Part shown: piece after piece, positions 10,364-40,268 of the stretch
How the letters are laid out: each line of letters opens with the position of its first letter
Numbering within the stretch: the first letter of the stretch is position 1
Origin: Chloroherpetonaceae bacterium
GTDB lineage: Bacteria > Bacteroidota > Chlorobiia > Chlorobiales > Chloroherpetonaceae
Length of the DNA: 64,000 bases
NCBI GenBank assembly: GCA_028277445.1
Contig: JANQGG010000015.1
Span: 62,001 to 126,000, forward strand
Direction: 5' to 3'
Notes under the pieces: model-generated
What the model saw: the letters and a program-made list of their open reading frames with translations, nothing else
The model's database searches: none
Told to the model about the DNA's origin: nothing
Position numbers and translations under genes: made by a program

Positions 10364-10495
10364 GTCTAACTCAAATGTATCATAGAAGTGGAATACGGGA
10401 AGATTTTTTTATTTATTGATCCAAGAGCGGCAAACTTCCCCAAGTTTTTTAAATTTCGACATATCTTTACATCTTTAAACATTAACTACCTTATC

Positions 10496-10909
10496 ATGCA
10501 AAGCCCGGATGTGCGTTGGAAGCAGCGTTTTGAAAACTTCACAAATGCCTATAAACAATTAAGCGATGCGGTTGAACTTTCACATAAACGGCGCTTGTCT
10601 AAACTTGAAGAACAGGGCCTCATTCAAAGTTTTGAATATACATTCGAGCTTGCCTGGAACACGCTAAAAGATTACCTGAAGCATGAAAAAGTTGATGTAA
10701 AATTCCCTAGAGATACCATTAAGAAAGGCTTTCAATATGATTTAATAGACGATGGGGAGAAATGGTTAGACATGTTAGATAAACGAAACTTGCTTGCCCA
10801 TACTTATGATGAAGCCAATGCAAAACTTGCATTAGAATTGATTAAAACGGAGTTTTATCCTCAAATTCAGCGCTTTTTCAACGTATTTCAAACCAAATAT
10901 GAACGATAA
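10496..10909 (+). CDS. hepT: HepT-like HEPN toxin of a HEPN/MNT toxin-antitoxin pair
   Basis: A 137-residue all-alpha protein of the HEPN (HI0074/HepT) family. It carries the RX4HXY ribonuclease motif as RNLLAHTY (Arg97, His102, Tyr104). In characterised HepT the motif cuts RNA, and the tyrosine is AMPylated by the MNT partner to switch the toxin off. The start chosen is the ATG at 10496, because the 36 residues upstream in frame are not family-like. Its end overlaps the next gene by 11 bp, the usual HEPN-MNT arrangement. It sits directly downstream of a decayed transposase. Confidence 0.88.
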   Translation: MQSPDVRWKQRFENFTNAYKQLSDAVELSHKRRLSKLEEQGLIQSFEYTFELAWNTLKDYLKHEKVDVKFPRDTIKKGFQYDLIDDGEKWLDMLDKRNLLAHTYDEANAKLALELIKTEFYPQIQRFFNVFQTKYER

Positions 10910-11213
10910 ATTTGGACTATCACAAAAAAGCTTTCAAAGTATTCTTCATACCCTTGAGGCATTTCCTGATATTGAAAAAGCCGCAATTTTCGGAAGCCGA
11001 GCAATGGGCCGTTATAAAAAAGGGAGTGATATTGATATTGCCATTTATGGGCAAAATCTACGGATAGATACCGCGCTCAATCTTTCAGCTATTTTAAATG
11101 AACGGCTTAATATCCCTTATAATATTGATGTTGTGGCGCCTGAATTCCTTACGAATCAAAACCTTTATGAACACATCAAACGTGTAGGGCAGCCTTTTTA
11201 TCCCCAAAAGTAA
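10899..11213 (+). CDS. mntA: MntA-like minimal nucleotidyltransferase antitoxin
   Basis: A 104-residue protein with the minimal nucleotidyltransferase fold. The defining GSX10DXD motif is intact (FGSRAMGRYKKGSDIDIA; Gly32-Ser33, Asp44, Asp46). Further acidic residues lie in IDVVAPEF. In characterised HepT/MntA pairs this enzyme transfers AMP groups from ATP onto the HEPN toxin tyrosine to neutralise it. It overlaps the hepT-like gene by 11 bp, so translation is coupled. Assignment is from motif and gene context. Confidence 0.88.
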   Translation: MNDKFGLSQKSFQSILHTLEAFPDIEKAAIFGSRAMGRYKKGSDIDIAIYGQNLRIDTALNLSAILNERLNIPYNIDVVAPEFLTNQNLYEHIKRVGQPFYPQK

Positions 11214-13642: not shown

Positions 13643-13981
13643 ATGGGCATTTCAAAAACAGATTTATTTTCAAAAGAACAAAACGATATTGCATTGGCTG
13701 CAAAAGCCTTTGCAAATCCTGCACGCGTTGCAATCATTCAACATTTGATGAATGCAAAACAGTGCGTCAATAGTGATCTTGTGCAGGAGTTGGGACTTGC
13801 TCAGGCTACAATTAGCCAGCACCTACGGGAATTAAAAGACATTGGAATTATCCAGGGAACTATTGAAGGCAGCCGATTAAATTATTGCATTAATCCGGTG
13901 CGTTGGAAAAGCATACAGGATCAATTTAATGATTTGTTTAACCTATACATTAATATTTGTGAATCTGAGAAATGCTGCTAA
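13643..13981 (+). CDS. arsR: ArsR/SmtB-family metalloregulatory repressor
   Basis: A 112-residue winged-helix repressor. The core AAKAFANPARVAIIQHL, then LVQELGLAQATISQHLRELK as recognition helix, then the wing GIIQGTIEGSRLNYCIN, is typical. Cysteines lie at Cys42 (AKQCVNSDL), in the wing (YCIN), and in the tail ICESEKCC, where a vicinal pair closes the protein. These could bind trivalent arsenic. It starts a rightward cluster with arsM (62 bp downstream) and an ArsC-like protein. A palindrome just upstream suggests it represses its own operon. Confidence 0.88.
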   Translation: MGISKTDLFSKEQNDIALAAKAFANPARVAIIQHLMNAKQCVNSDLVQELGLAQATISQHLRELKDIGIIQGTIEGSRLNYCINPVRWKSIQDQFNDLFNLYINICESEKCC

Positions 13982-14042
13982 TTCATCTTTTATTCATCGT
14001 AATATAGCAATATTTAATTATTTAATTCTAAACATCGTTGTC

Positions 14043-14927
14043 ATGAAATCTCCTGAAGAACTCAAAAAAGTCGTTCAAGACCGATATGCAAAAATCGCAA
14101 AGCAAGGTAAAGCAGAAAATGCCGCCTCATGCTGCGGTGCAACCTCGCCATCCAATAAAGTCTATAACATCATGATGGACGATTACTCCAACATTGAGGG
14201 CTATGTTTCCGACGCTGATCTAGGGCTCGGTTGTGGGTTACCCACCGAATTTGCCAAAATCACAAAAGGCGATACGGTAGTTGATCTGGGATCAGGCGCC
14301 GGAAATGACTGCTTTGTTGCCCGCCATGAAACCGGGCCGGAAGGAAAAGTCATCGGTATAGATTTTACGCCCACAATGATTCAAAAAGCCCGAGAAAACG
14401 TTGAAAAAATTGGTTTTAACAATGTGGAATTCAGAGAAGGCGATATTGATAACATCCCCATCAGCAATGACCAAGCCGATGTTGTGATCAGCAATTGCGT
14501 GCTGAATCTTGTACCAAACAAACAAGACGTATTAGCTGAAATTTTCAGAGTTCTTAAACCCGGCGGGCATTTCAGCATATCTGATATCGTGCTTGTAGGT
14601 CAGCTGCCGGCAGCGTTAAAAAACGATGCCGAAATGTATGCCGGTTGCGTGGCCGGGGCAATCCAAAAATCCGATTACCTGAACTTCATTGAAGAAGCGG
14701 GTTTTCAAAACATGACGCTTCAAAAAGAAAAACCTGTGGTAATTCCTGAAGACATCCTCTCAAAATATATGGTGAAGGAGGCTATTGAAGCATTCAATCA
14801 AGGGAAGGTGGGTATTTACAGCATATCGGTTTATGCGGAAAAACCAGGCGAAAAAACAAAAAAACTTACGGTGCAAGAAAAGGTTGCCATAACCAACGCG
14901 TGTGATTCAAATTCCGGGTGTTGTTAA
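14043..14927 (+). CDS. arsM: Arsenite S-adenosylmethionine methyltransferase ArsM
   Basis: A 294-residue class I methyltransferase that converts As(III) to methylated arsenicals using SAM. Motif I is VVDLGSGAGNDCF. The conserved cysteines of ArsM are present: AASCCGATS near residue 30, GLGCGLP near 60, SNCVLNL near 155, and MYAGCVAGAI near 200. The protein ends in SGCC. The start ATG at 14043 is preferred because the in-frame extension upstream overlaps arsR and is not family-like. It lies between arsR and an ArsC/LMW-phosphatase-like gene, so arsenic control and chemistry are in one operon. No arsenite efflux pump gene is visible nearby. Confidence 0.92.
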   Translation: MKSPEELKKVVQDRYAKIAKQGKAENAASCCGATSPSNKVYNIMMDDYSNIEGYVSDADLGLGCGLPTEFAKITKGDTVVDLGSGAGNDCFVARHETGPEGKVIGIDFTPTMIQKARENVEKIGFNNVEFREGDIDNIPISNDQADVVISNCVLNLVPNKQDVLAEIFRVLKPGGHFSISDIVLVGQLPAALKNDAEMYAGCVAGAIQKSDYLNFIEEAGFQNMTLQKEKPVVIPEDILSKYMVKEAIEAFNQGKVGIYSISVYAEKPGEKTKKLTVQEKVAITNACDSNSGCC

Positions 14928-14952
14928 TAAGACCAATCAAAATAAAAGAGAT

Positions 14953-15696
14953 ATGAAAACAACATATTTTATCGTTTGCATGGCAATAGCCTTGTTTCAA
15001 AACTCCCATGCACAACCATATAAAACTACGCCTGCAATGAGTAAATCATTAGAACAGTCCGGGAATACAACACTTTATCCGGCGCTGGTTTCCTACTTTC
15101 GAACACTAGAAGCCAGTTTGGAAGCAATTGCCGAACCGAGAAAATCTGCTTTAAACCAGATTGCTCAATACATTGAAAAAAAGATAAATGCCGGTGAAGA
15201 TGTCAATCTTACCTTTATTTGCACACATAACAGCCGAAGAAGCCATATGAGTCAAATTTGGGCGAAAGCCGCTGCTTTCTATTTGGGGATATCTCAACAC
15301 ATACGCACATATTCCGGCGGCACAGAAGCTACGGCATTTAATGCTCGTGCGGTTGCTGCGATTGAACGCGCCGGTTTTCACATTGTAAATCCGGGTGGTG
15401 AAAATCCCAGATACCAAGTCAATGTTTCTGAAAATTCATCTTCAATGATTTGTTTTTCAAAAACATACAACGATCCTTACAATCCAGCATCCGATTTTGC
15501 AGCGGTGATGACTTGCTCCGATGCCGATCAAAATTGCCCAATCATATCCGGAGCGGACTTACGCGTGTCTTTACCATTCGTGGATCCAAAACTTTCGGAT
15601 GGCACTGCAAAGGAGAGCGAAACTTATGATGAACGTTGTCGGCAAATCGCGACGGAAATGCTGTATGTGATGTCCAGGGTGAAGTCTTCAGAATAA
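14953..15696 (+). CDS. Exported low-molecular-weight phosphatase / ArsC-like protein
   Basis: A 247-residue protein. The start ATG at 14953 gives a clear signal peptide (MKTTYFIVCMAIALFQNSHA), so it should act outside the cytoplasm. The catalytic loop ICTHNSRRSHMSQ matches the C-x-x-N-x-x-RS P-loop of low-molecular-weight protein tyrosine phosphatases and thioredoxin-coupled arsenate reductases. FVDPKLSDG near residue 210 fits the general-acid DP loop. Cysteines at MTCSDADQNC could be the resolving pair. Its place behind arsM suggests a role in arsenic metabolism, but a phosphatase role is equally possible. Periplasmic location would be unusual for a cytosolic thiol-driven reductase. Confidence 0.8.
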   Translation: MKTTYFIVCMAIALFQNSHAQPYKTTPAMSKSLEQSGNTTLYPALVSYFRTLEASLEAIAEPRKSALNQIAQYIEKKINAGEDVNLTFICTHNSRRSHMSQIWAKAAAFYLGISQHIRTYSGGTEATAFNARAVAAIERAGFHIVNPGGENPRYQVNVSENSSSMICFSKTYNDPYNPASDFAAVMTCSDADQNCPIISGADLRVSLPFVDPKLSDGTAKESETYDERCRQIATEMLYVMSRVKSSE

Positions 15697-22362: not shown

Positions 22363-22740
22363 TCATGATTTTTTCATTTTTTCAGTGAGTTTATCAACTG
22401 CATCAAGTAAATGTTCGGGCAGGTTTCTTGAGCTTTCAATAATGGCAATAACACCCATATTACCAGCCGAAAGCCTTCGATAAAAAACACAATACCCACC
22501 GCGGTCGCTGGATTTGCTTTTGTATTGAAAATAATAGACCTCTTTTTTTAACCGTTTAGCTTTTCCGGTCTTAGGAAAGGGCCTGTCATGCCTGTTTTTG
22601 TTCTGTTTTTCTATCGCATGATAAAGCTTTGTCACATAAGTGCGAGCATGCTCAATACCCCATTTTTTGCTGTATTGAGCAATCTCGCTCATATGGATTT
22701 TAGACTGGCTGTAAAAATATGGAGGAGGTATCGATGGCAT
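22363..22740 (-). CDS. ParE/RelE-superfamily toxin-like protein
   Basis: A 125-residue basic protein. The central EVYYFQYKSKSSDRGGYCVFYRR and GVIAIIESSRN strands give the beta-sheet pattern of RelE/ParE toxins. The N-terminal region is longer than usual (about 40 residues before the core). Its ATG overlaps the stop of the upstream ribbon-helix-helix antitoxin gene by one base (TAATG), which is typical for toxin-antitoxin operons. RelE toxins cut mRNA on ribosomes and ParE toxins poison gyrase; the sequence does not decide which applies. Confidence 0.7.
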   Translation of the reverse strand: MPSIPPPYFYSQSKIHMSEIAQYSKKWGIEHARTYVTKLYHAIEKQNKNRHDRPFPKTGKAKRLKKEVYYFQYKSKSSDRGGYCVFYRRLSAGNMGVIAIIESSRNLPEHLLDAVDKLTEKMKKS

Positions 22741-23024
22741 TATTTGGATAATCCGTTTTCGTCAAGGATATCATTAAGCTTTAAAGGCTTAAATTCACTT
22801 TCCTGCGCCATAGCGCCGGGAATTAGCGCCTCCCAAACTGCATCCAAATGCCGATGAAGGCTTGGCTCACTATAGGCGTCTTTTCGAACCAGGTCTCGCA
22901 AAAACTCACCGGCATTGGCATACATCCCATTGGGTCCAATTTGTTTTTCAATATGTTGCATTAACGCCTCGGGCATGAACACTTGCAATCGCTTATTTCC
23001 GATTTTATTTTGAACATCCGACAT
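22740..23024 (-). CDS. ParD-like ribbon-helix-helix antitoxin
   Basis: A 94-residue protein. The start ATG at 23022-23024 follows an AAGGAG site; an in-frame extension upstream is not protein-like. The N-terminal KRLQVFMPEALMQHIEKQI has the beta strand plus helix of ribbon-helix-helix DNA-binding proteins. YANAGEFLRDLVRKD is the typical second helix of ParD. The C-terminal tail (FKPLKLNDILDENGLSK) would wrap the toxin. It overlaps the toxin gene by one base and probably represses the operon. Confidence 0.75.
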   Translation of the reverse strand: MSDVQNKIGNKRLQVFMPEALMQHIEKQIGPNGMYANAGEFLRDLVRKDAYSEPSLHRHLDAVWEALIPGAMAQESEFKPLKLNDILDENGLSK

Positions 23025-23236
23025 AATTTCCGGCTCCTTGACCATAAAGTTTATTTGTTTATGCAAGTAAATACTCATTTCATACTTAAATATAAGTATA
23101 ACGTTTATGACGTATTCAACTGCAAAATAATTTGAACAGTATAAAAACAAATCATGCCTGTGAAAACATGCACTTTTAAACCCCTGCTTTCTTAGGAGTG
23201 ACTTGCTATTAAAACGCCAGCACATCCAGTGCAAAT

Positions 23237-23560
23237 TTATGATAGTTTTGACGATACATAGCGGTTCAAACTTACGCCTTGTTCTGCTGCCTGAATGGCC
23301 ATGTTTCTGTGCTTTTCAGGCGGGACACGAACCATAAATTTACCGCTGTATGTCTTATCTGCAAGTGGCTGAGGGATATCCTCACCATTGGCCTGCATAT
23401 CTTCAACCACTTCGCCAACCAGATTTATAAGTCCGTTTAACGCATTTGCATGATTTCCCGCAAGGTAAGAGAGGCTTGGAAATTCTGCACAGAGGGCAAC
23501 ATATTCCCTATCCTCTTCAGACCATGTGACACGGTATGTATAGTGTTTATAATTAACCAT
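23237..23560 (-). CDS. hicB: HicB-family antitoxin (first HicAB pair)
   Basis: A 107-residue HicB. The N-terminal half is a partial RNase H-like fold (YTYRVTWSEEDREYVALCAE ending in FPSLSYLAG) that blocks the toxin. The C-terminal half (GKFMVRVPPEKHRNMAI and VSLNRYVSSKL) is a ribbon-helix-helix DNA-binding module, so the protein can autoregulate. The gene overlaps the hicA stop by 8 bp. It belongs to an accessory island with a ParDE-type pair and a split giant gene downstream. Confidence 0.9.
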   Translation of the reverse strand: MVNYKHYTYRVTWSEEDREYVALCAEFPSLSYLAGNHANALNGLINLVGEVVEDMQANGEDIPQPLADKTYSGKFMVRVPPEKHRNMAIQAAEQGVSLNRYVSSKLS

Positions 23561-23810
23561 TTCTTTTTAACTCAAGATTTTTAATTGCCACTAAAACCTG
23601 CCTTACCTGGTAGGTTTTGGCTTTCCCATCTTTACCCTTTTGAATATTCACGCGAGGATCGCCTTGCCATGGCGTTTTATAAACATGGTGGCTGGTACCT
23701 TTATTGCGCGGTTCTCCAAAATAGTGAGAACACACTTTAGCAAGATCAGAAAAACGCACGTTTTGTGGCGCTTTTTCCATCTCCCTCAGCGTTTTCTCAA
23801 TCTTGCCCAT
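23553..23810 (-). CDS. hicA: HicA-family mRNA interferase toxin (first HicAB pair)
   Basis: An 85-residue protein with the small double-stranded-RNA-binding-like fold of HicA. The catalytic histidine is in GTSHHVYKTP (His41/His42), and the closing strand is GKAKTYQVRQVLVAIKNL. HicA cleaves mRNA without ribosomes. It lies upstream of and overlaps hicB, the usual HicAB order. There is a 33-residue leader before the glycine-rich turn, slightly longer than minimal HicA proteins, in a form seen in HicA family members. Confidence 0.88.
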   Translation of the reverse strand: MGKIEKTLREMEKAPQNVRFSDLAKVCSHYFGEPRNKGTSHHVYKTPWQGDPRVNIQKGKDGKAKTYQVRQVLVAIKNLELKRNG

Positions 23811-26525: not shown

Positions 26526-26541
26526 GGTTTCACGTGAAACA
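26526..26541. promoter_or_regulatory. parS-like ParB-binding site 1
   Basis: GGTTTCACGTGAAACA matches the bacterial chromosomal parS consensus TGTTTCACGTGAAACA at 15 of 16 positions; only the first base differs. It lies between the stomatin-operon terminator and the DMT transporter start, ending 15 bp before the ATG. Confidence 0.85.
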
Positions 26542-26556
26542 TATTAAACATAGCGT

Positions 26557-27429
26557 ATGTGGTTTGCACTTTCAGTTCTTTCAGCGCTGTCCAAATCAGC
26601 CAGCCAGATTTTAACCAAACGCCTTCATGGGATTGATACACTGGAGCTTGCCGCGTTCAGCCATATTTTTTCTGCACTTATTATTTTTCCGTTAGCCATC
26701 TTTATTGAATTTCCAACCACCTGGGCGTTTTGGACGCCCACAATCATAAGCTCGTTTTTAAATGTCATTGCTATTTTATTGCTGATCAAAGCGATCAAGA
26801 TCAGTGATCTTTCCTACAGCATCCCATTTTTATCCTTAACCCCGATTTTTGCCATCGGCGTTGCTTATCTCTTCAGGGGTGAAGAAATAAGTGTGTTTTC
26901 AGCTTCGGGGATTTTCCTCGTTGTTATTGGCGCGCTAACCATTGATGCAAGATCGTTAAACGATGCTTTATCGCTTGGTGGCAGGAGAGTATTTAAGGAT
27001 TTCGGCGTACAACTGGTTATTCTTGTGGCCTTGATCTATGCCATATCAAGCGTTTGCGATAAAAGCGCCACCTTGGCCTCAACGCCGCTAACGTATGTTT
27101 GGCTGTTTACGTTTACCCGCGCCATTATTTTCGGAGTGCTTTTGTTATGGAAACGCCAACGAAAATTGCCTCAACAAACCCTAAATTCAAACCAAAACGC
27201 CTATTTACCCCTGGCTATCCTTGGCGCGATTTATTTTTGCGAGGCCTTCTTTCAAATGCTGGCATTTAACTATGGCAATGTCGCCGAAACCATTGGCGTG
27301 AAACGGCTCAGCATTCTATTCACCTCTCTTTCAGGATTTACGCTCTTTAAAGAGCAGGTGACGGCAAATAAAATCTTTGGTGCCATATGTTTGGCGACAG
27401 GCTCTATTGTGATTTATCTGTTCCGATAA
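26557..27429 (+). CDS. EamA/DMT-family transporter
   Basis: A 290-residue membrane protein with ten predicted helices in two repeats of five, the drug/metabolite transporter plan. The first EamA repeat ends with a long helix FSASGIFLVVIGALTID, and the second ends ANKIFGAICLATGSIVIYLF. SLTPIFAIGVAYLFRGEE near residue 100 is the typical end of repeat one. The transported compound cannot be told from the sequence. A parS-like site sits just upstream. Confidence 0.88.
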   Translation: MWFALSVLSALSKSASQILTKRLHGIDTLELAAFSHIFSALIIFPLAIFIEFPTTWAFWTPTIISSFLNVIAILLLIKAIKISDLSYSIPFLSLTPIFAIGVAYLFRGEEISVFSASGIFLVVIGALTIDARSLNDALSLGGRRVFKDFGVQLVILVALIYAISSVCDKSATLASTPLTYVWLFTFTRAIIFGVLLLWKRQRKLPQQTLNSNQNAYLPLAILGAIYFCEAFFQMLAFNYGNVAETIGVKRLSILFTSLSGFTLFKEQVTANKIFGAICLATGSIVIYLFR

Positions 27430-27501
27430 TATGGTTACTTTTGTTTTATCATAAGGCTATTAATGTTTTATATTAAACACAGTGGTTTAATTAATTATCC
27501 A

Positions 27502-27517
27502 TGTTTCACGTGAAACA
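27502..27517. promoter_or_regulatory. parS site 2 (perfect consensus)
   Basis: TGTTTCACGTGAAACA is an exact, fully palindromic 16-bp parS sequence. It lies in the gap between the DMT transporter and the thioesterase gene, 14 bp before the latter's ATG. ParB loads at such sites and spreads, and recruits SMC to align the chromosome arms from the origin. Confidence 0.95.
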
Positions 27518-27531
27518 TTTCCTACATACTT

Positions 27532-27963
27532 ATGAAAGACACATTAACACCCGGCCTGGAGTTTGAGCATAAATTTATTGTTCTGGCCTCCAAAACCGTT
27601 CCGTTTCTTTACCCCGAAGCCGATGAATTTCAGGACATGCCCCGTGTATTTGCAACAGGCTTTTTGGTTGGTTTTATTGAATGGGCATGTATGAAAATGA
27701 TTCAACCGTATTTGGATGACGATGATGAACAGACCGTAGGCACGCATATCAATATCAGCCATGAAGCGCCAACGCCTGCCGGCTTTGAAGTCACCGCAAA
27801 AATAAAATTGATGGAAGTAGATGACCGGCGGCTGTTTTTTGAAATTGAAGTGCAGGATGGTATTGATGTTATTGCCAAAGGCAATCATGAACGATACCTT
27901 ATTCACCGCTCATCATTTGATTCAAAACTTCAGCGAAAACTTGACTTGGTTAGAAATCAATAA
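27532..27963 (+). CDS. Hotdog-fold thioesterase family protein
   Basis: A 143-residue single-domain hotdog protein. DMPRVFATGFLVGFIEWACM gives the central helix, with Glu and Thr/Ala positions like those of fluoroacetyl-CoA thioesterase (FlK)-type enzymes. VGTHINISHEAPTPAGFEVT follows, with the conserved Gly-Thr-His. These enzymes hydrolyse acyl-CoA thioesters; the natural substrate is unknown. It sits between two parS sites and 40 bp upstream of mnmG in the same direction. Confidence 0.85.
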   Translation: MKDTLTPGLEFEHKFIVLASKTVPFLYPEADEFQDMPRVFATGFLVGFIEWACMKMIQPYLDDDDEQTVGTHINISHEAPTPAGFEVTAKIKLMEVDDRRLFFEIEVQDGIDVIAKGNHERYLIHRSSFDSKLQRKLDLVRNQ

Positions 27964-27967
27964 TTGA

Positions 27968-27983
27968 TGTTTCACGTGGAACA
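27968..27983. promoter_or_regulatory. parS site 3 (canonical form)
   Basis: TGTTTCACGTGGAACA is the reverse complement of the classic parS TGTTCCACGTGAAACA, with all 16 positions in the accepted consensus. It lies in the 40-bp gap between the thioesterase and mnmG, 20 bp before the mnmG ATG. Confidence 0.94.
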
Positions 27984-28003
27984 GTGATGTTAACTATTGA
28001 AGT

Positions 28004-29872
28004 ATGAGTTACGATGTTATTGTTGTCGGAGCCGGCCATGCCGGCTCTGAAGCTATTTTGGCTCCGGCACGGATGGGGCTTAAATGCCTGTTGATTACCC
28101 TGGACTTAACAGCGATTGCCCGAATGTCTTGCAATCCTGCCATTGGTGGAGTAGCAAAGGGTCAAATTACGCGTGAAATTGATGCCTTAGGCGGCGAAAT
28201 GGCCAAAGTGATTGACGCAACAGGCATACAGTTTCGAATGTTGAACCGAAGCAAAGGTCCGGCGATGCACTCACCGCGAGCCCAGGCCGACCGGAATTTA
28301 TATACCCTGGAAATGCGCCGCCGCATTGAATCGGAATCAAACATTGACTTGTTGCAAGATGACGTGGTTGGCATAACAGTTAAAAACAATTGCTTTCACT
28401 CCTTGGTTTTAAGATCAGGCTCGCACATCTTAGGGAAGTCGGCTATCCTTACTAACGGTACATTTCTCAATGGCTTGATCCATATTGGTTTGCAAAACTA
28501 CTCGGCCGGCAGAACATTAGCCGAACCTGCCTCAAAAGGATTGACCGAATGTTTGGTGAATCTTGGATTTTCTGCCGGACGCTTAAAAACCGGGACACCG
28601 CCACGGATTGACGCCCGTTCGGTGGATTACAGCAAGGTTGAACATCAATTGCCCGACGACGATCCCGAACCGTTTTCCTTTGAAACCCCAAGTTTAAAAG
28701 ATCGCAAGCAGATCAATTGTTACATAACTTATACCAACCCAGAAACCCATGCCATTTTGGAAACCGGATTTGATCGCTCACCGTTATTTTCCGGGCGGGT
28801 TAAAGGCATTGGGCCGCGCTACTGCCCGTCTATTGAAGATAAAGTGAATCGGTTTCGGGATAAGGATCGTCACCAAATCTTCCTGGAACCTGAGGGATTC
28901 GATACTCGTGAAATGTATGTCAATGGCTATTCTACATCCCTGCCCGAAGATATTCAAATCAAAGGTCTTCGCACGATACCCGGATTAGAAAACGTGAAGC
29001 TTATGCGCGCGGGTTATGCCATTGAGTACGACTATTTTCACCCTTACCAGCTTCATCCAACCCTTGAAACCAAAAGCGTTGAAGGGCTTTATTTTGCCGG
29101 GCAAATCAACGGAACATCCGGTTATGAAGAGGCCGCTGCGCAAGGGATAATTGCCGGGATCAATGCAGCTTTAAAGGTAAAAGGCGAAGGGGAGTTTATC
29201 CTGAAGCGCTCCGATGCCTATATCGGTGTGTTGATTGACGACTTGATTACCAAAAATACCAACGAACCCTACCGAATGTTCACCTCTCGCGCCGAGCATC
29301 GAATTATTCTCAGGCACGACAATGCCGACCGTCGCCTTCGCGAAAAAGGCTACGCCGTCGGCTTGGTAAAGCAATCCGTCTATGATGCATTCCAAGAAAA
29401 ACGAACCGGCATTGAACGCATCAAAGATTTCCTGGAAGAAAAAAAGCTGACTCCGAATGAAGTCAATCCTTATTTTGAAGCTTCAGGCACGCCGTTGCTT
29501 CAAAAAACCACGAAAGTAAAGGATATGCTTCGTAAGCACGAATACCCGTTCTCCAAAATGATTGAGGTGTTACCGGAGTTTCGAGAGCAAGTTGAATCCA
29601 TTTCCAAAGACCCCAAAGTGTATGAACAGATCGAAATTGATATCAAATACGAAGGGTATATTCGCCGCGAAATGCTGCTGGCTGAAAAACTTTCCCGGTT
29701 AGAAGACATTCATATTCCTGATCAACTGGATTATAAACTAATCAAGGGGCTTTCTTCGGAGGCCAGGGAAAAATTGTTGAAGTTTAAACCCGATTCCTTG
29801 GGGCAGGCCTCACGAATTTCCGGGGTGAGTCCCTCCGATGTTTCGGTGTTATTGGTAAGATTAGGCCGCTAA
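28004..29872 (+). CDS. mnmG: tRNA uridine-5-carboxymethylaminomethyl modification enzyme MnmG
   Basis: A 622-residue FAD enzyme, the partner of MnmE in making cmnm5U34 in tRNA. The dinucleotide-binding motif [10 protein letters not shown] opens the protein. The MnmG signatures [11 protein letters not shown] (about residue 268) and [17 protein letters not shown] (about 367) are intact. The helical C-terminal MnmE-binding domain ends with [19 protein letters not shown]. MnmG genes often sit beside parAB near the origin. Here they do not, but a canonical parS is in the leader. A terminator hairpin begins at the stop codon. Confidence 0.97.
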
Positions 29873-29896
29873 ACCATATAGCGGCCTGTTTTGATT
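29863..29896 (+). terminator. Terminator overlapping the mnmG stop
   Basis: AGGCCGCT (29863-29870) pairs with AGCGGCCT (29880-29887) around a nine-base loop, followed by GTTTTGATTT. The stem's left arm is the last mnmG codons plus part of the stop codon, so transcription should end directly after the gene. Confidence 0.75.
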
Positions 29897-29901
29897 TCTG
29901 A

Positions 29902-31011
29902 TTAATAAGAATCGTATAAAATGTTTGCCCATTGATAAAAATATGGGCTGGGAATACCTAGTGAGTTATCATAAATACCTTCCCAGTCGCCATTTCCTGG
30001 CGTTGATGCCGAGCCATCGCCATTGGTATCGCCCTTTTTTATATCGTCTTTAAATGATGTGAAGTATACGCCTGTTCCATTGTAATTACCAATTTGTGAA
30101 CCTGCGTCAATAAGCAACGTACTAGTTGGCGTAAACTTTACAACCACATCGTTTCCTAATGTCAGCGTACTTGATCCGTCGATATAAAGATCATTGTCAT
30201 TGATAACATAAGCCACTTCATCTTCTTGCCAAGAGATACTTTTACTAATTTCGCCAATCGCATAAACAAAAATCCCGTTCTTGGTATTTGTAATGGTAGA
30301 ACTATCAGGATTATGAAACACATTAGAATTGTCAAGATTGAACTCGGTACTTATTGAAAGCGGTAAGTTATTATCATAAAATACGTTACCGGTAATAACC
30401 GTACCAGATTCGGCTTGTGAGGCATCCAATGCGCCATAGTAAAAATCCCCGTCTTTACCACCCCTGTTATGCGCAAACTCGCAGTTGGTTACCTGGACAT
30501 TCTGGCTGCCAAACAAGCTTAAAGTATACTTATAAGAACCATTTCCGCCATAATAAAACTTGCAATAATTAAATACGGATCCATTTTCATCATTTAAGTT
30601 GATATCATACCAATCTCCTCTAGCGGCCTGGGTGGCTGCGCCATCACCATTGGTATCGCCGCCATGTGTATCGTCTTTATAGGATGTAAAAATAATGGGA
30701 TTCTCCGAAGTGCCATTGGCATTGATTGTCCCGCTGGAGCCCAGCACCAGATATGGACCATCGGATTGATGAAATTTAACAATCGTGCCGGGTTGAATGG
30801 TTAATGTGGCTTCTACATAAAAATCGTACTTACGAATAACATAAATGGTATCGCTGTACCAAGTTGTTGTGGAAATAATATTTGAAGTGATTTCTCGAAC
30901 CTTTGCAGAAGTTCCGCCGTTATCCGGACCTGACGAATTGTCGTCATCGCATGACATAATTGGAAATGTTAATAATAAAAGCAGCAAAACAGTGATGGTG
31001 TTTTTTTTCAT
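29902..31011 (-). CDS. Lipoprotein with beta-helix (right-handed parallel) repeats
   Basis: A 369-residue protein when started at the ATG 31009-31011; an upstream in-frame extension is discarded because the lipoprotein signal peptide begins here. That signal is MKKNTITVLLLLLLTFPIMS followed by the lipid cysteine and DDDNSSG. The mature part contains repeats typical of parallel beta-helix surface proteins (VQVTNCEFAHNRGG, VITGNVFYDNN). Two similar blocks read SYKDDTHGGDTNGDGA and SFKDDIKKGDTNGDGS, which could bind calcium. The CDDD start resembles the acidic lipoprotein export signals of Bacteroidota. No function is known. Confidence 0.82.
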   Translation of the reverse strand: MKKNTITVLLLLLLTFPIMSCDDDNSSGPDNGGTSAKVREITSNIISTTTWYSDTIYVIRKYDFYVEATLTIQPGTIVKFHQSDGPYLVLGSSGTINANGTSENPIIFTSYKDDTHGGDTNGDGAATQAARGDWYDINLNDENGSVFNYCKFYYGGNGSYKYTLSLFGSQNVQVTNCEFAHNRGGKDGDFYYGALDASQAESGTVITGNVFYDNNLPLSISTEFNLDNSNVFHNPDSSTITNTKNGIFVYAIGEISKSISWQEDEVAYVINDNDLYIDGSSTLTLGNDVVVKFTPTSTLLIDAGSQIGNYNGTGVYFTSFKDDIKKGDTNGDGSASTPGNGDWEGIYDNSLGIPSPYFYQWANILYDSY

Positions 31012-31172
31012 GGCAAAAGGGATATGTGTTATTAAAGAGTACCATATTATAAATTTACACAGGTTATTCAAAACATTTCAAGAACATTTCTAAGTTGAAA
31101 GTTAATAGGTTTGCGTTTGCCCTTTCTTGATTAATCCTTACCTTATTTAGGATTTTTAATCATTACAGAAGT

Positions 31173-31188
31173 TGTTTCACGTGTAACA
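31173..31188. promoter_or_regulatory. parS-like ParB-binding site 4
   Basis: TGTTTCACGTGTAACA matches parS at 15 of 16 positions; the T at position 12 is the one change. It lies in the divergent gap between the lipoprotein and polB, 12 bp before the polB ATG. With sites 1-3 it forms a cluster spanning 4.7 kb. Confidence 0.82.
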
Positions 31189-31200
31189 TTATTTGTGCTC

Positions 31201-33639
31201 ATGCAAGCTGAAAAACAGAATACCTCTCAAGAAAATATCGCCGAAAGTTTTCTTCAAAATGAATTGCTTTATGGAAAAAACCCTGAAGAAGGCATCGTTG
31301 GGGTTCACCAAATTTCCGATACCCATGTCAGGATTTACAAACGCGATTGCAATGGCGTAACTTATTACGACGATCAATGCTTCCCCTTCTTTTTTATTGC
31401 CAAACCGCCATTTCTAAAAGGATTCAAACCCAAAGTGGGTAAAGGATTTTGGTTGAAAGAAATTTCGGGAGATAACTATTACAACCATCTGGCCATATTT
31501 AAAAGTTGGAAAGATTACCGGGCAGCAATGGATTATGCCTCTAACTTAAAACAAAAGTTAGGCTCTTCAGAAAACGATGTCTATACAAGCCTTGATGATT
31601 CCGGTAGCTGGCGCATTGATGAAATCTATACAAAAGGCGACGCCGCTTCTCAATATCTGCTTCAATCCGGAAAAACCTTGTTCAAAGGCATGACTTTTGA
31701 TAATCTCCACCGAATACAACTCGATATTGAAACCTATTATGATGAAAAAGCTCAGCAAAAGTCCAAAAAAGCATTAGGTGAAGAACCGATCATTATTGTT
31801 TCGCTTTGCGACAACAAAGGCTGGGAAAAGGTCATTCATGCCAAGAATCAAACCGAAAAGCAGCTCTTAAACCAATTGGTGAGCATCATTCAGGAGTGCG
31901 ATCCTGATGTGATTGAAGGCCACAATATTTTTGGATTTGATCTGCCGTTTATTTTGCGACGCTGCGAAATCAACCAGGTTAAGTTTAAGATTGGGAGGGA
32001 TGGTTCGGTTCCACGCTCTTACCAGGCCAACATTCGTTTTGGTGAACGAACCATGGACTACATGTTTTGTGATATTGCCGGACGCCATGTTGTGGATACG
32101 TTTTTCCTGGTTCAAAGTTTTGATATGGCCAAGCGAGCCATGCCAAGTTATGGCTTGAAAGCTGCTGCAAAATATTTCGGTTTTGCTTCTGAGGATCGGA
32201 CCTACATTGATCACACAGATATCGCTGAAGCTTGGGATAATGATCCCGATCGTTTGCTCAATTATGCCTTGGATGATGTCAGAGAAACCCGTCAATTGGC
32301 CGATTTACTATCCGGCAGTAATTTTTACATGTCGCAAATGATGCCGTTTTCATTTGCTCAGGTCTCTCGCATGGGCCCGGCAGCCAAAATAGAAGCGCTG
32401 TTTGTCAGGGAATACCTTCGCGAAAAACGCTCTATACCCCGACCTCAGATTGGCCAGCAGCAAACCGGCGGGTTTACAGAAGTCTTTTTAAAAGGGATTT
32501 TAGGGCCAATTGTCTATGCCGATGTAGAATCACTTTATCCTTCAATTATGCTTAGCTACGATGTTTGCCCGGAGTCGGATGAGCTAAAGCTTTTCCCGAA
32601 AATCCTCAAAGACCTTCGTTCTCTTCGATTTACAGCAAAGAACAAGGCCAAAGAAGAAAACAAAAAAGGGAACACCAACGCAGCCAGCAACTTTGATGCG
32701 ATGCAGAATTCATTCAAAGTTCTCATCAACTCCATGTATGGTTATTTAGGATTCAATGCCGGTATATTTAACGATTATGAGCAGGCCGATCGGGTGACGA
32801 CAACCGGGCAGGAAATTGCAAAAAAAATGATCTTTGAATTTGAAAAACGCGGCTGCAAAATCGTTGAAGTGGATACCGATGGTATTTTTTTAATTCCCCC
32901 AGATAGTGTTCAAACAGAAGAAGAAGAAATTCAAATGGTGGAAGAAGTTTCCAAAACCATGCCCGAAGGCATTCTAATTGGCTTTGACGGACGATTCAGA
33001 AAAATGATCTCTTATATGAAGAAAAACTACTTGCTTGTAGATTATAATGAGACTATAAAAATAAAGGGGTCTTCATTAGTGAGCCGAAGTGGTGAAAAAT
33101 TTGGGCGCGATTTTGTTAAAGAAGGATTTAAAATGCTTCTGGATGAAAATATTCAAGGCTTGCACGAACTTTATATCCGATATAGAGATAAGATCATTCA
33201 CCGCGAGATGGATGTGTCTGAATTCAGTCGAACCGAGACATTAAAATCAACTCTGGACGATTACATAAAAGATACACAATCCGGCAAACGCCAAAAAGCT
33301 GTTACATACGAGATTGTAAGACGCGACAAGCTGGATTTTTCCAAAGGATCAAGAATTACTTACTATATTGCCGGTTCCGGTTTAGCGAGCGGCGCTTTAT
33401 TTAACAAAGGAAAACGCGTTGAAGATTGGGATTCAAATAGCCCGGACCAAAATATCGATTTCTATTTGAAAAGGCTGGATGAGTTTACTCAAAAATTTAG
33501 GCCGTTTTTTAAGGATTCCGATTACAGCAAAATCTTTACAGCAGACGAATTGTTTGGCTTTTCGCCGGATGGGATTGAATTGTTAAAAGAAATTAAACAT
33601 AAAGACACGGCCGATTTAGGAGAAGAGGTACCGTTTTAG
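31201..33639 (+). CDS. polB: Family B DNA polymerase (Pol II/archaeal-type)
   Basis: An 812-residue family B DNA polymerase. The 3'-5' exonuclease motifs are present: LDIETY (about 172), GHNIFGFDLPF (about 240) and YALDDV (about 356). Polymerase motif A is DVESLYPSIM (about 440). Motif B is FKVLINSMYGYLGFNAG (about 503). Motif C is VDTDGIF (about 556), with Gly where most relatives have Ser after the Asp pair. The thumb motif is KIKGSSLVSRSGE. Bacterial members act in damage tolerance and replication restart. The ATG at 31201 is preferred to a GTG two codons earlier. It follows a parS-like site and ends at a bidirectional terminator. Confidence 0.93.
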   Translation: MQAEKQNTSQENIAESFLQNELLYGKNPEEGIVGVHQISDTHVRIYKRDCNGVTYYDDQCFPFFFIAKPPFLKGFKPKVGKGFWLKEISGDNYYNHLAIFKSWKDYRAAMDYASNLKQKLGSSENDVYTSLDDSGSWRIDEIYTKGDAASQYLLQSGKTLFKGMTFDNLHRIQLDIETYYDEKAQQKSKKALGEEPIIIVSLCDNKGWEKVIHAKNQTEKQLLNQLVSIIQECDPDVIEGHNIFGFDLPFILRRCEINQVKFKIGRDGSVPRSYQANIRFGERTMDYMFCDIAGRHVVDTFFLVQSFDMAKRAMPSYGLKAAAKYFGFASEDRTYIDHTDIAEAWDNDPDRLLNYALDDVRETRQLADLLSGSNFYMSQMMPFSFAQVSRMGPAAKIEALFVREYLREKRSIPRPQIGQQQTGGFTEVFLKGILGPIVYADVESLYPSIMLSYDVCPESDELKLFPKILKDLRSLRFTAKNKAKEENKKGNTNAASNFDAMQNSFKVLINSMYGYLGFNAGIFNDYEQADRVTTTGQEIAKKMIFEFEKRGCKIVEVDTDGIFLIPPDSVQTEEEEIQMVEEVSKTMPEGILIGFDGRFRKMISYMKKNYLLVDYNETIKIKGSSLVSRSGEKFGRDFVKEGFKMLLDENIQGLHELYIRYRDKIIHREMDVSEFSRTETLKSTLDDYIKDTQSGKRQKAVTYEIVRRDKLDFSKGSRITYYIAGSGLASGALFNKGKRVEDWDSNSPDQNIDFYLKRLDEFTQKFRPFFKDSDYSKIFTADELFGFSPDGIELLKEIKHKDTADLGEEVPF

Positions 33640-38789: not shown

Positions 38790-40268
38790 TCAAATGGATT
38801 GAAGCTCGATTTTTTTCTTCAGGTCCTGAATATTTGAGCCAATTTCAAATGAATTTTTTATTTCTTTTTCAATGGTGTTTACGGCATGGATAACCGTGGA
38901 GTGATCGCGACCCCCAAAATACAAACCAATCGTTTTATAAGAAGAGCCTGTGAGTTCCTTGGATAAATGCATGGCTACTTGCCTGGCAAAGGCGATCTCT
39001 TTTTTACGAGATTTTCCTTTCATTTGATTGGAAGACACGTTGTAAAAGTCGCACACAACTTTTTCTATAACATCGATGGTAATGCTTCGAGTGCGTTCTC
39101 TAATAAGGTCTTTTAAGACAATTTTAGTCAAGGCAAGATCAATATCTTTATCTTTTTTGTATAACGATGATGTGGCTAAAAGCTTCACCATACATCCTTC
39201 CAATTCTCTGATATTATGCTTGACATGAGTTGCAATGAATTCAATGACCGGTTCGGGAAAATTCGAGCCATTATCAGCCAGCTTTCTTTGAAGAATTGCA
39301 CGACGGGTTTCATAATCGGGCTGCTGCAAATCAGCCGAAAGTCCCCATTGGAATCGAGAAAGCAAGCGCTCTTCAAGACCCTTTAATTCTTTTATAGGCC
39401 GATCTGAGGATAGAACAATTTGCTTGTTGGTTTGATGCAACGCATTGAAGATATGAAAGATTTCTTCCTGAGTTTTTTCCTTACCTTCAAAAAACTGAAT
39501 ATCATCAATAATGAGCAGCTCAACATTTCTATAAAGGGACGAAAAATCCTGTACCCGACCATTTTGAATGGCGCTAACGAATTCAATAGTAAATTTCTCA
39601 CTGGAAACGTACAAAACCATGTTTGTACGCTTATGCAATCGCGCATAATTGCCAATAGCCTGAACCAAATGGGTTTTTCCTAAACCAACGCCACCATAAA
39701 CCACCAAAGGATTAAAGGAGTTTTTACCGGGCGATTCGGCAACGGATTTTGCAGCGGCAAGCGCTAATGCATTACAATCGCCTTGAATAAAATTATCAAA
39801 TTGGTACTTTGGGTTTAAAAAGCTTTCAAACTTTTGAACATTCGTTTTAAAATGAGAGGTTTGTTCCTGAAGCTTTGCACCATTTGTTGAAATTTCTTCA
39901 GGCGGTGGCAAGTCGGTTTTCTGCTGAGGTAATTCAAGAGTTACCGGTTGATACGGGGATTTTTGTACAACCACTGAATAGGTTAACTTTGCATTTTCTC
40001 CGATAACTTCAATGATCGTTCGTTTTAATAGGGCATAGTAATTTTCTTCTATCCATTCATAAAAAAATTGACTCGGTACTTGAATGGTCAATTCCTCATT
40101 TGTCAGCGATAATGGGACAATTGGTTTAAACCAGGTATTGAAACTTTGTGGGTTGATTTTGTTATGAATCTTTTCCAGGCATAATTTCCATATCTCTTCT
40201 GCAGATGCATTTGATGAAGGCATGCTTAAAGCTTGAGATCGTGTTGATTCGGGATCAGTTTCTTTCAT
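38790..40268 (-). CDS. dnaA: Chromosomal replication initiator DnaA
   Basis: A 492-residue DnaA with all four domains. Domain I is [19 protein letters not shown] (from about residue 25). A variable linker follows. The AAA+ domain has [18 protein letters not shown] (about 190) and [13 protein letters not shown]. Domain IV has the DnaA-box-binding signature [16 protein letters not shown] near the end. It is the first gene of the leftward origin series and diverges from rpmH, which marks the strand-switch point typical of the origin. Confidence 0.98.

Follow-up and report, generated by a model that had tools for sequence, protein, structure and literature searches.

We analysed a 64,000-nucleotide stretch of DNA from a Chloroherpetonaceae bacterium (hereafter the window; positions 62001-126000 of contig C24 in genome G000, which comprises 3.42 Mb in 70 contigs) and found that it carries four 16-bp palindromes resembling parS, the site bound by the partition protein ParB, at a short distance from dnaA. 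These palindromes are very probably a parS cluster, i.e., the centromere of this chromosome within a ParABS system. The sites themselves, their uniqueness in the genome, a parS-type ParB accompanied by ParA and SMC, the conservation of the arrangement in relatives and its coincidence with the origin marked by GC skew are all observed directly, and they support a reading made earlier from the sequence only, which had taken the palindromes for chromosomal parS sites beside the origin. That chromosomal parS sites lie near the origin has long been known (Livny et al. 2007, as cited in PMC7333895). The zone described here is a new instance of this known system, and its placement is the more interesting part.

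Four parS sites in one 4.7-kb zone

A scan of the window that tolerated up to 2 mismatches to TGTTNCACGTGNAACA returned exactly four matches, with 1, 0, 0 and 0 mismatches from left to right. Site 1 (26526-26541; GGTTTCACGTGAAACA) ends 15 bp 5' of a DMT/EamA transporter gene (ATG at 26557), and site 2 (27502-27517; TGTTTCACGTGAAACA) ends 14 bp 5' of the ATG of a thioesterase gene (27532). Site 3 (27968-27983; TGTTTCACGTGGAACA), the one conserved throughout the order, lies 20 bp 5' of the mnmG ATG (28004). Site 4 (31173-31188; TGTTTCACGTGTAACA) is the counterpart of the site found between mnmG and polB in relatives and ends 12 bp 5' of the polB ATG at 31201, or 6 bp from the start if translation begins at the in-frame GTG at 31195. 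The sequence-only reading had placed the four sites at these positions, 12-20 bp before start codons and 7-14 kb from dnaA, and the scan agrees on all three counts, the measured distance to dnaA being 7.6-13.7 kb. Its score for site 4 needed correction, as this site agrees fully with the degenerate consensus TGTTNCACGTGNAACA and scores 15/16 only when compared with TGTTTCACGTGAAACA.

Could such matches arise by chance in AT-rich gene leaders? Shuffled sequences give an expectation of 0.30 matches for the window, and none of 100 shuffles reached four. A scan of the whole 3.42-Mb genome found no other perfect site and a single further site with 1 mismatch, on contig C52, inside an open reading frame (ORF) for a 902-codon methyl-accepting chemotaxis receptor. 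This stray site is what chance allows, and beyond it nothing speaks for a chance origin of the cluster. All good sites of the genome bar this one are confined to the 4.7-kb zone, and equally good sites are not scattered elsewhere. Together, the shuffles and the conservation of the sites across the order (see below) refute chance, to which we assign a negligible probability, in line with the earlier judgement that it was very unlikely.

A parS-type ParB, with ParA and SMC

The genome encodes one copy of parB, on contig C22 (TIGR00180, 177 bits), where a ParA-family ORF adjoins it, and a single SMC gene of full length, located on the same contig as the window (1054 bits; cut-off 567). Residues 38-239 of ParB align to Spo0J/ParB structures. 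The recognition region reads GKDRTTISNFLRLLK...SMGHAR, with the motif GKxR...N...GHAR, and alignment by eye on the GK-R and GHAR motifs gives equivalents of R173, N178, F179, K184, G201 and R204 (residue numbering after Cell Rep 2020, PMC7383237). According to the same paper, R173 and G201 are absolutely conserved in ParB orthologues, while Noc has Q173 and R201.

This distinction matters since the nucleoid occlusion system Noc/NBS is alike in using a related 16-bp palindrome and a ParB-like protein, and the ParB described here does obtain some score on the Noc model. That score (237 bits) is, however, under the cut-off of 315. In addition, the sites have the parS and not the NBS sequence, the protein carries R173 and G201 instead of Q173 and R201, and the sites cluster near the origin. 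We therefore reject an identity as Noc/NBS.

Within a set of 61 genomes of the order, G000 included, ParB was detected in 59. The parAB genes lie far from parS in the order: on another contig here (C22, locus L146), approximately 1.13 Mb away in relative G001 and approximately 0.37 Mb away in G025. No parS site was present in the 14 kb that we read around parAB.

In four relatives, the sites and not dnaA follow the skew-defined origin

GC skew in the window is negative or near zero before approximately 40 kb and positive after, consistent with an origin close to both dnaA and the parS sites. To separate these two landmarks, four relatives are informative (G001, G161, G149 and G104), in which parS and dnaA are 0.75-1.7 Mb apart. 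In each of them, the sign change of the skew is at most approximately 90 kb away from parS; it does not coincide with dnaA.

The pattern is clean in two of the four. In G001, parS/mnmG lies at 1.025 Mb, far from dnaA at 0.001 Mb, and the fine-scale skew change falls near 0.985 Mb; all 7 samples up to 0.96 Mb are negative, all 10 samples between 1.06 and 2.5 Mb are positive, and the skew is negative again beyond. In G161, with parS at 1.587 Mb and dnaA at 3.287 Mb, the change occurs between approximately 1.60 and 1.68 Mb. The evidence from the other two is weaker. G149 (parS at 1.376 Mb, dnaA at 0.001 Mb) changes sign near 1.34-1.36 Mb, with a skew that is noisy elsewhere, and G104 (parS at 2.567 Mb, dnaA at 1.818 Mb) does so between approximately 2.54 and 2.59 Mb, sampled over part of the chromosome only and with a single sample, at 2.45 Mb, that disagrees. 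A skew that flips near parS and not near dnaA shows that the parS/mnmG block follows the replication origin, which is demanded by a centromere role but not by a role in regulating particular genes. Counts of DnaA boxes in the window were at chance level, and no clear cluster of them was seen near parS in the relatives.

Conservation at mnmG across the order and beyond

Within the 61-genome order set, 60 genomes have one parS site or more. We read 39 mnmG loci in the order, and 35 of these have a site upstream of mnmG, in 34 cases within 65 bp and in one at 587 bp. A site after the mnmG stop codon or before polB, the next conserved gene, is found in 38 of the 39. The association extends to more distant genomes of the phylum, where mnmG lies within 1.5 kb of a site in 23 of 26 loci, and the two-sided arrangement is also seen in named Candidatus Neomarinimicrobiota contigs and in a Calditrichia metagenome-assembled genome. 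The MnmG protein of the window is 53-56% identical to named Neomarinimicrobiota and Calditrichia records; records from other phyla score alike. In two loci, L126 (9785-9816; G030) and L138 (9823-9854; G024), the upstream site is missing and two parS sites abut in mirror image after mnmG.

We found no relevant literature on parS with mnmG or on parS with Marinimicrobia, nor any on the two-sided parS-mnmG arrangement or on the tracking of the skew-defined origin by parS over dnaA; the search was incomplete, making this weak evidence of novelty.

Spacing to start codons and the question of gene regulation

The sequence-only reading had also held that the distances between sites and start codons are more regular than intergenic placement requires. 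Under a model in which each site is placed uniformly within its own intergenic gap, the probability that all four leader gaps are 20 bp or less is 0.011, and that of a range of at most 8 bp with all gaps at 20 bp or less is 0.002, both statistics having been picked after the data were seen. The mean relative position of the sites within the gaps is unremarkable (P = 0.13). Among relatives, the presence of a site before mnmG is strongly conserved, but the gap depends on lineage, with values of -8 (overlapping the start codon), 11, 20-27 and up to 587 bp, and it is near-constant in one family only. In this family, designated f4 and the best sampled, which makes the strongest case for a constraint on spacing, most genomes, from two genera, have a gap of exactly 11 bp, even though the upstream intergenic gap measures 78-648 bp (mostly 200-650 bp) and the spacer between site and mnmG is near-random (38-39% pairwise identity versus 32% in flanking upstream DNA).

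The second site in f4 serves as a control. It hugs the mnmG stop codon, at 10-12 bp in one genus, which is roughly as steady as the mnmG gap, and at a less steady 3-9 bp in the other (3-12 bp overall), and polB mostly starts 26-106 bp beyond, so that a fixed distance to polB, seen as 12-14 bp in the window's own family, is not supported as a general rule. The spacing signal is thus moderate at mnmG, with no consistent one at polB, and the claim of regularity is partly supported, by mnmG in f4 and, with the post hoc statistics noted, by the four window leaders.

These spacings bear on the proposal that the sites have a second important function as operators, at which leader-bound ParB lowers or times the expression of mnmG, polB and their neighbours, the spacing having been selected for this purpose. 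We regard this as unlikely. It would fit the 12-20 bp gaps in the window, the 11-bp gap in f4 with its near-random spacer, and a precedent in Pseudomonas aeruginosa, where ParB at the intergenic sites parS3 and parS4 represses adjacent genes while the intragenic parS1 and parS2 do not (PMC5521831). That system resembles the present one in that its parS sites cluster close to oriC and include some in front of genes; it differs in that the genes are others and that the sites here are known from sequence alone. In Bacillus subtilis, by contrast, genes beside parS are unchanged on loss of Spo0J (reviewed in PMC7022226). Between lineages, the mnmG gap takes values as far apart as -8 and 587 bp, and the second site of f4 keeps to the mnmG stop codon and not to the polB start. 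Further, an operator would be expected to stay with its gene away from the cluster. The orthologue of the DMT transporter gene in G001 (65% identical) lies elsewhere on the chromosome and has no parS in its leader, from which it follows that site 1 goes with the place and not with the gene; this observation concerns one of the four genes and is indirect, not strictly defining. The thioesterase gene is lineage-specific, without a close orthologue among 20 relatives.

Promoter motifs that might place the sites relative to transcription starts were also looked for. The motif TAnnTTTG occurred in 6 of 37 upstream regions versus 2.4 expected, with 7 as the largest value in 200 shuffles, and in only 2 of the 4 window leaders, and a sigma-70 scan returned no more than chance.

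RNA hairpins and start codons formed by parS

A palindrome in a leader could also act in the mRNA, as a hairpin for attenuation or translational control, instead of as a DNA site. A perfect parS palindrome is able to fold into a short stem closed by an ACGU loop, and the one in the thioesterase leader folds in this way. Nevertheless, the leaders fold no better than shuffled sequences (z of +0.8 to +1.4), and site variants ignore pairing: 7 of 86 sites combine C with A at the 5/12 pair, and terminal mismatches occur too. There is hardly any variation in the ACGT centre, which a hairpin would leave as an unpaired loop, and sites also occur directly after the mnmG stop codon. With folding at shuffle level and variation that disregards the stem, we reject the hairpin as highly improbable.

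A different kind of constraint could come from translation. An A followed by parS reads ATG TTT CAC GTG AAA CAN, and a leader peptide (MFHVKQ/H...) or N-terminal extension translated from it could set the spacing. Most f4 leaders indeed give a frame of 11-12 codons ending 7 nt inside mnmG. In some named Candidatus Neomarinimicrobiota contigs, parS overlaps the start codons of mnmG and of the next, Mfd-like gene, the palindrome encoding the N-terminus MFHVKH or MFHVKQ: the mnmG frame begins MFHVKHTDYD in contigs L037 and L081 (position 7978), and in L033 (positions 7984 and 9857) the Mfd-like gene after mnmG starts with MFHVKQ. However, outside f4 the parS-borne ATG shows no bias in its frame with respect to mnmG (12, 9 and 8 by our own count), and the frames in the window are short or absent. 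The preference for A/T at the flanks is also found at sites after mnmG, and may thus belong to the ParB site. Attractive as it is in some lineages, we set this explanation aside as very improbable in general, given frames that are unbiased outside one family.

It would combine elements of both proposals if parS were kept in this order at a constant short spacing from the mnmG start because ParB occupancy, or a start codon formed by parS, controls mnmG initiation. Such control would tie tRNA modification to the state of origin segregation, and a DNA polymerase likewise in some lineages. We consider this improbable.

A probable centromere in a proposed ancient gene block

By analogy with its family, ParB, encoded with ParA on contig C22, would load onto parS as a CTP-dependent clamp and then spread, ParA would separate the ParB-covered origin regions after replication, and SMC would be loaded in this region. 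The cluster itself is probably an ancient origin-proximal block (parS - mnmG - parS - polB), and the sites presumably lie in short gene leaders because, within such a block, mainly the gaps at gene boundaries escape coding constraint. Should ParB also affect how the downstream genes are transcribed or translated, that effect would be secondary.

The system shares with the chromosomal ParABS systems of B. subtilis, Caulobacter and Pseudomonas the 16-bp consensus, the clustering of sites near the origin, a Spo0J-type ParB with parS-specific residues, ParA and SMC. It differs from them in that the cluster is tied to mnmG/polB and not to parAB, which is far away, and in that all four sites are in leaders, with none within a gene. 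Three observations weigh against a centromere as the full account. The parAB genes are not beside parS, being on a different contig here and approximately 1.13 Mb off in G001; parB was undetected in 2 genomes from the order set of 61; and the 11-bp mnmG gap in f4 is tighter than uniform placement gives and is left unexplained by purely intergenic placement.

Genes beside the sites and elsewhere in the window

Profile matches confirm the gene names given by the sequence-only reading. Site 1 precedes the EamA/DMT-type transporter gene (26557..27429, forward strand; Pfam PF00892, E = 1.5e-24), and site 2 a gene for an FlK-like thioesterase (27532..27963, forward strand; Pfam PF22636, E = 8e-31). 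The mnmG (gidA) gene, which is flanked by sites in nearly all relatives, occupies 28004..29872 on the forward strand (TIGR00136, 845 bits; cut-off 525). It is followed by polB, encoding a family-B, Pol II-like DNA polymerase (31201..33639, forward strand; PF00136 and PF03104, with a partial match to NF004421). The dnaA gene (38790..40268, reverse strand) is 7.6 kb from site 4, with dnaN and recF adjoining.

Further away in the window, some groups of small genes were recognised by eye. At 22363-23810 are small ORFs resembling toxin-antitoxin pairs (HicA/HicB-like at 23237-23810), and adjacent small ORFs at 10388-11213 look like a HepT/MntA nucleotidyltransferase toxin-antitoxin pair. ORFs resembling an ArsR regulator, an arsenite methyltransferase and a phosphatase stand in a row at 13643-15696, an apparent arsenic-resistance cluster.

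Implications

These data in all probability show where the centromere lies in a bacterial lineage that has received little study. In this lineage, parS together with mnmG is a better marker of the replication origin than dnaA, which is useful for origin prediction in metagenome-assembled genomes. Moreover, the 11-bp spacing to the mnmG start in most f4 genomes makes regulation of neighbouring genes by ParB directly testable.

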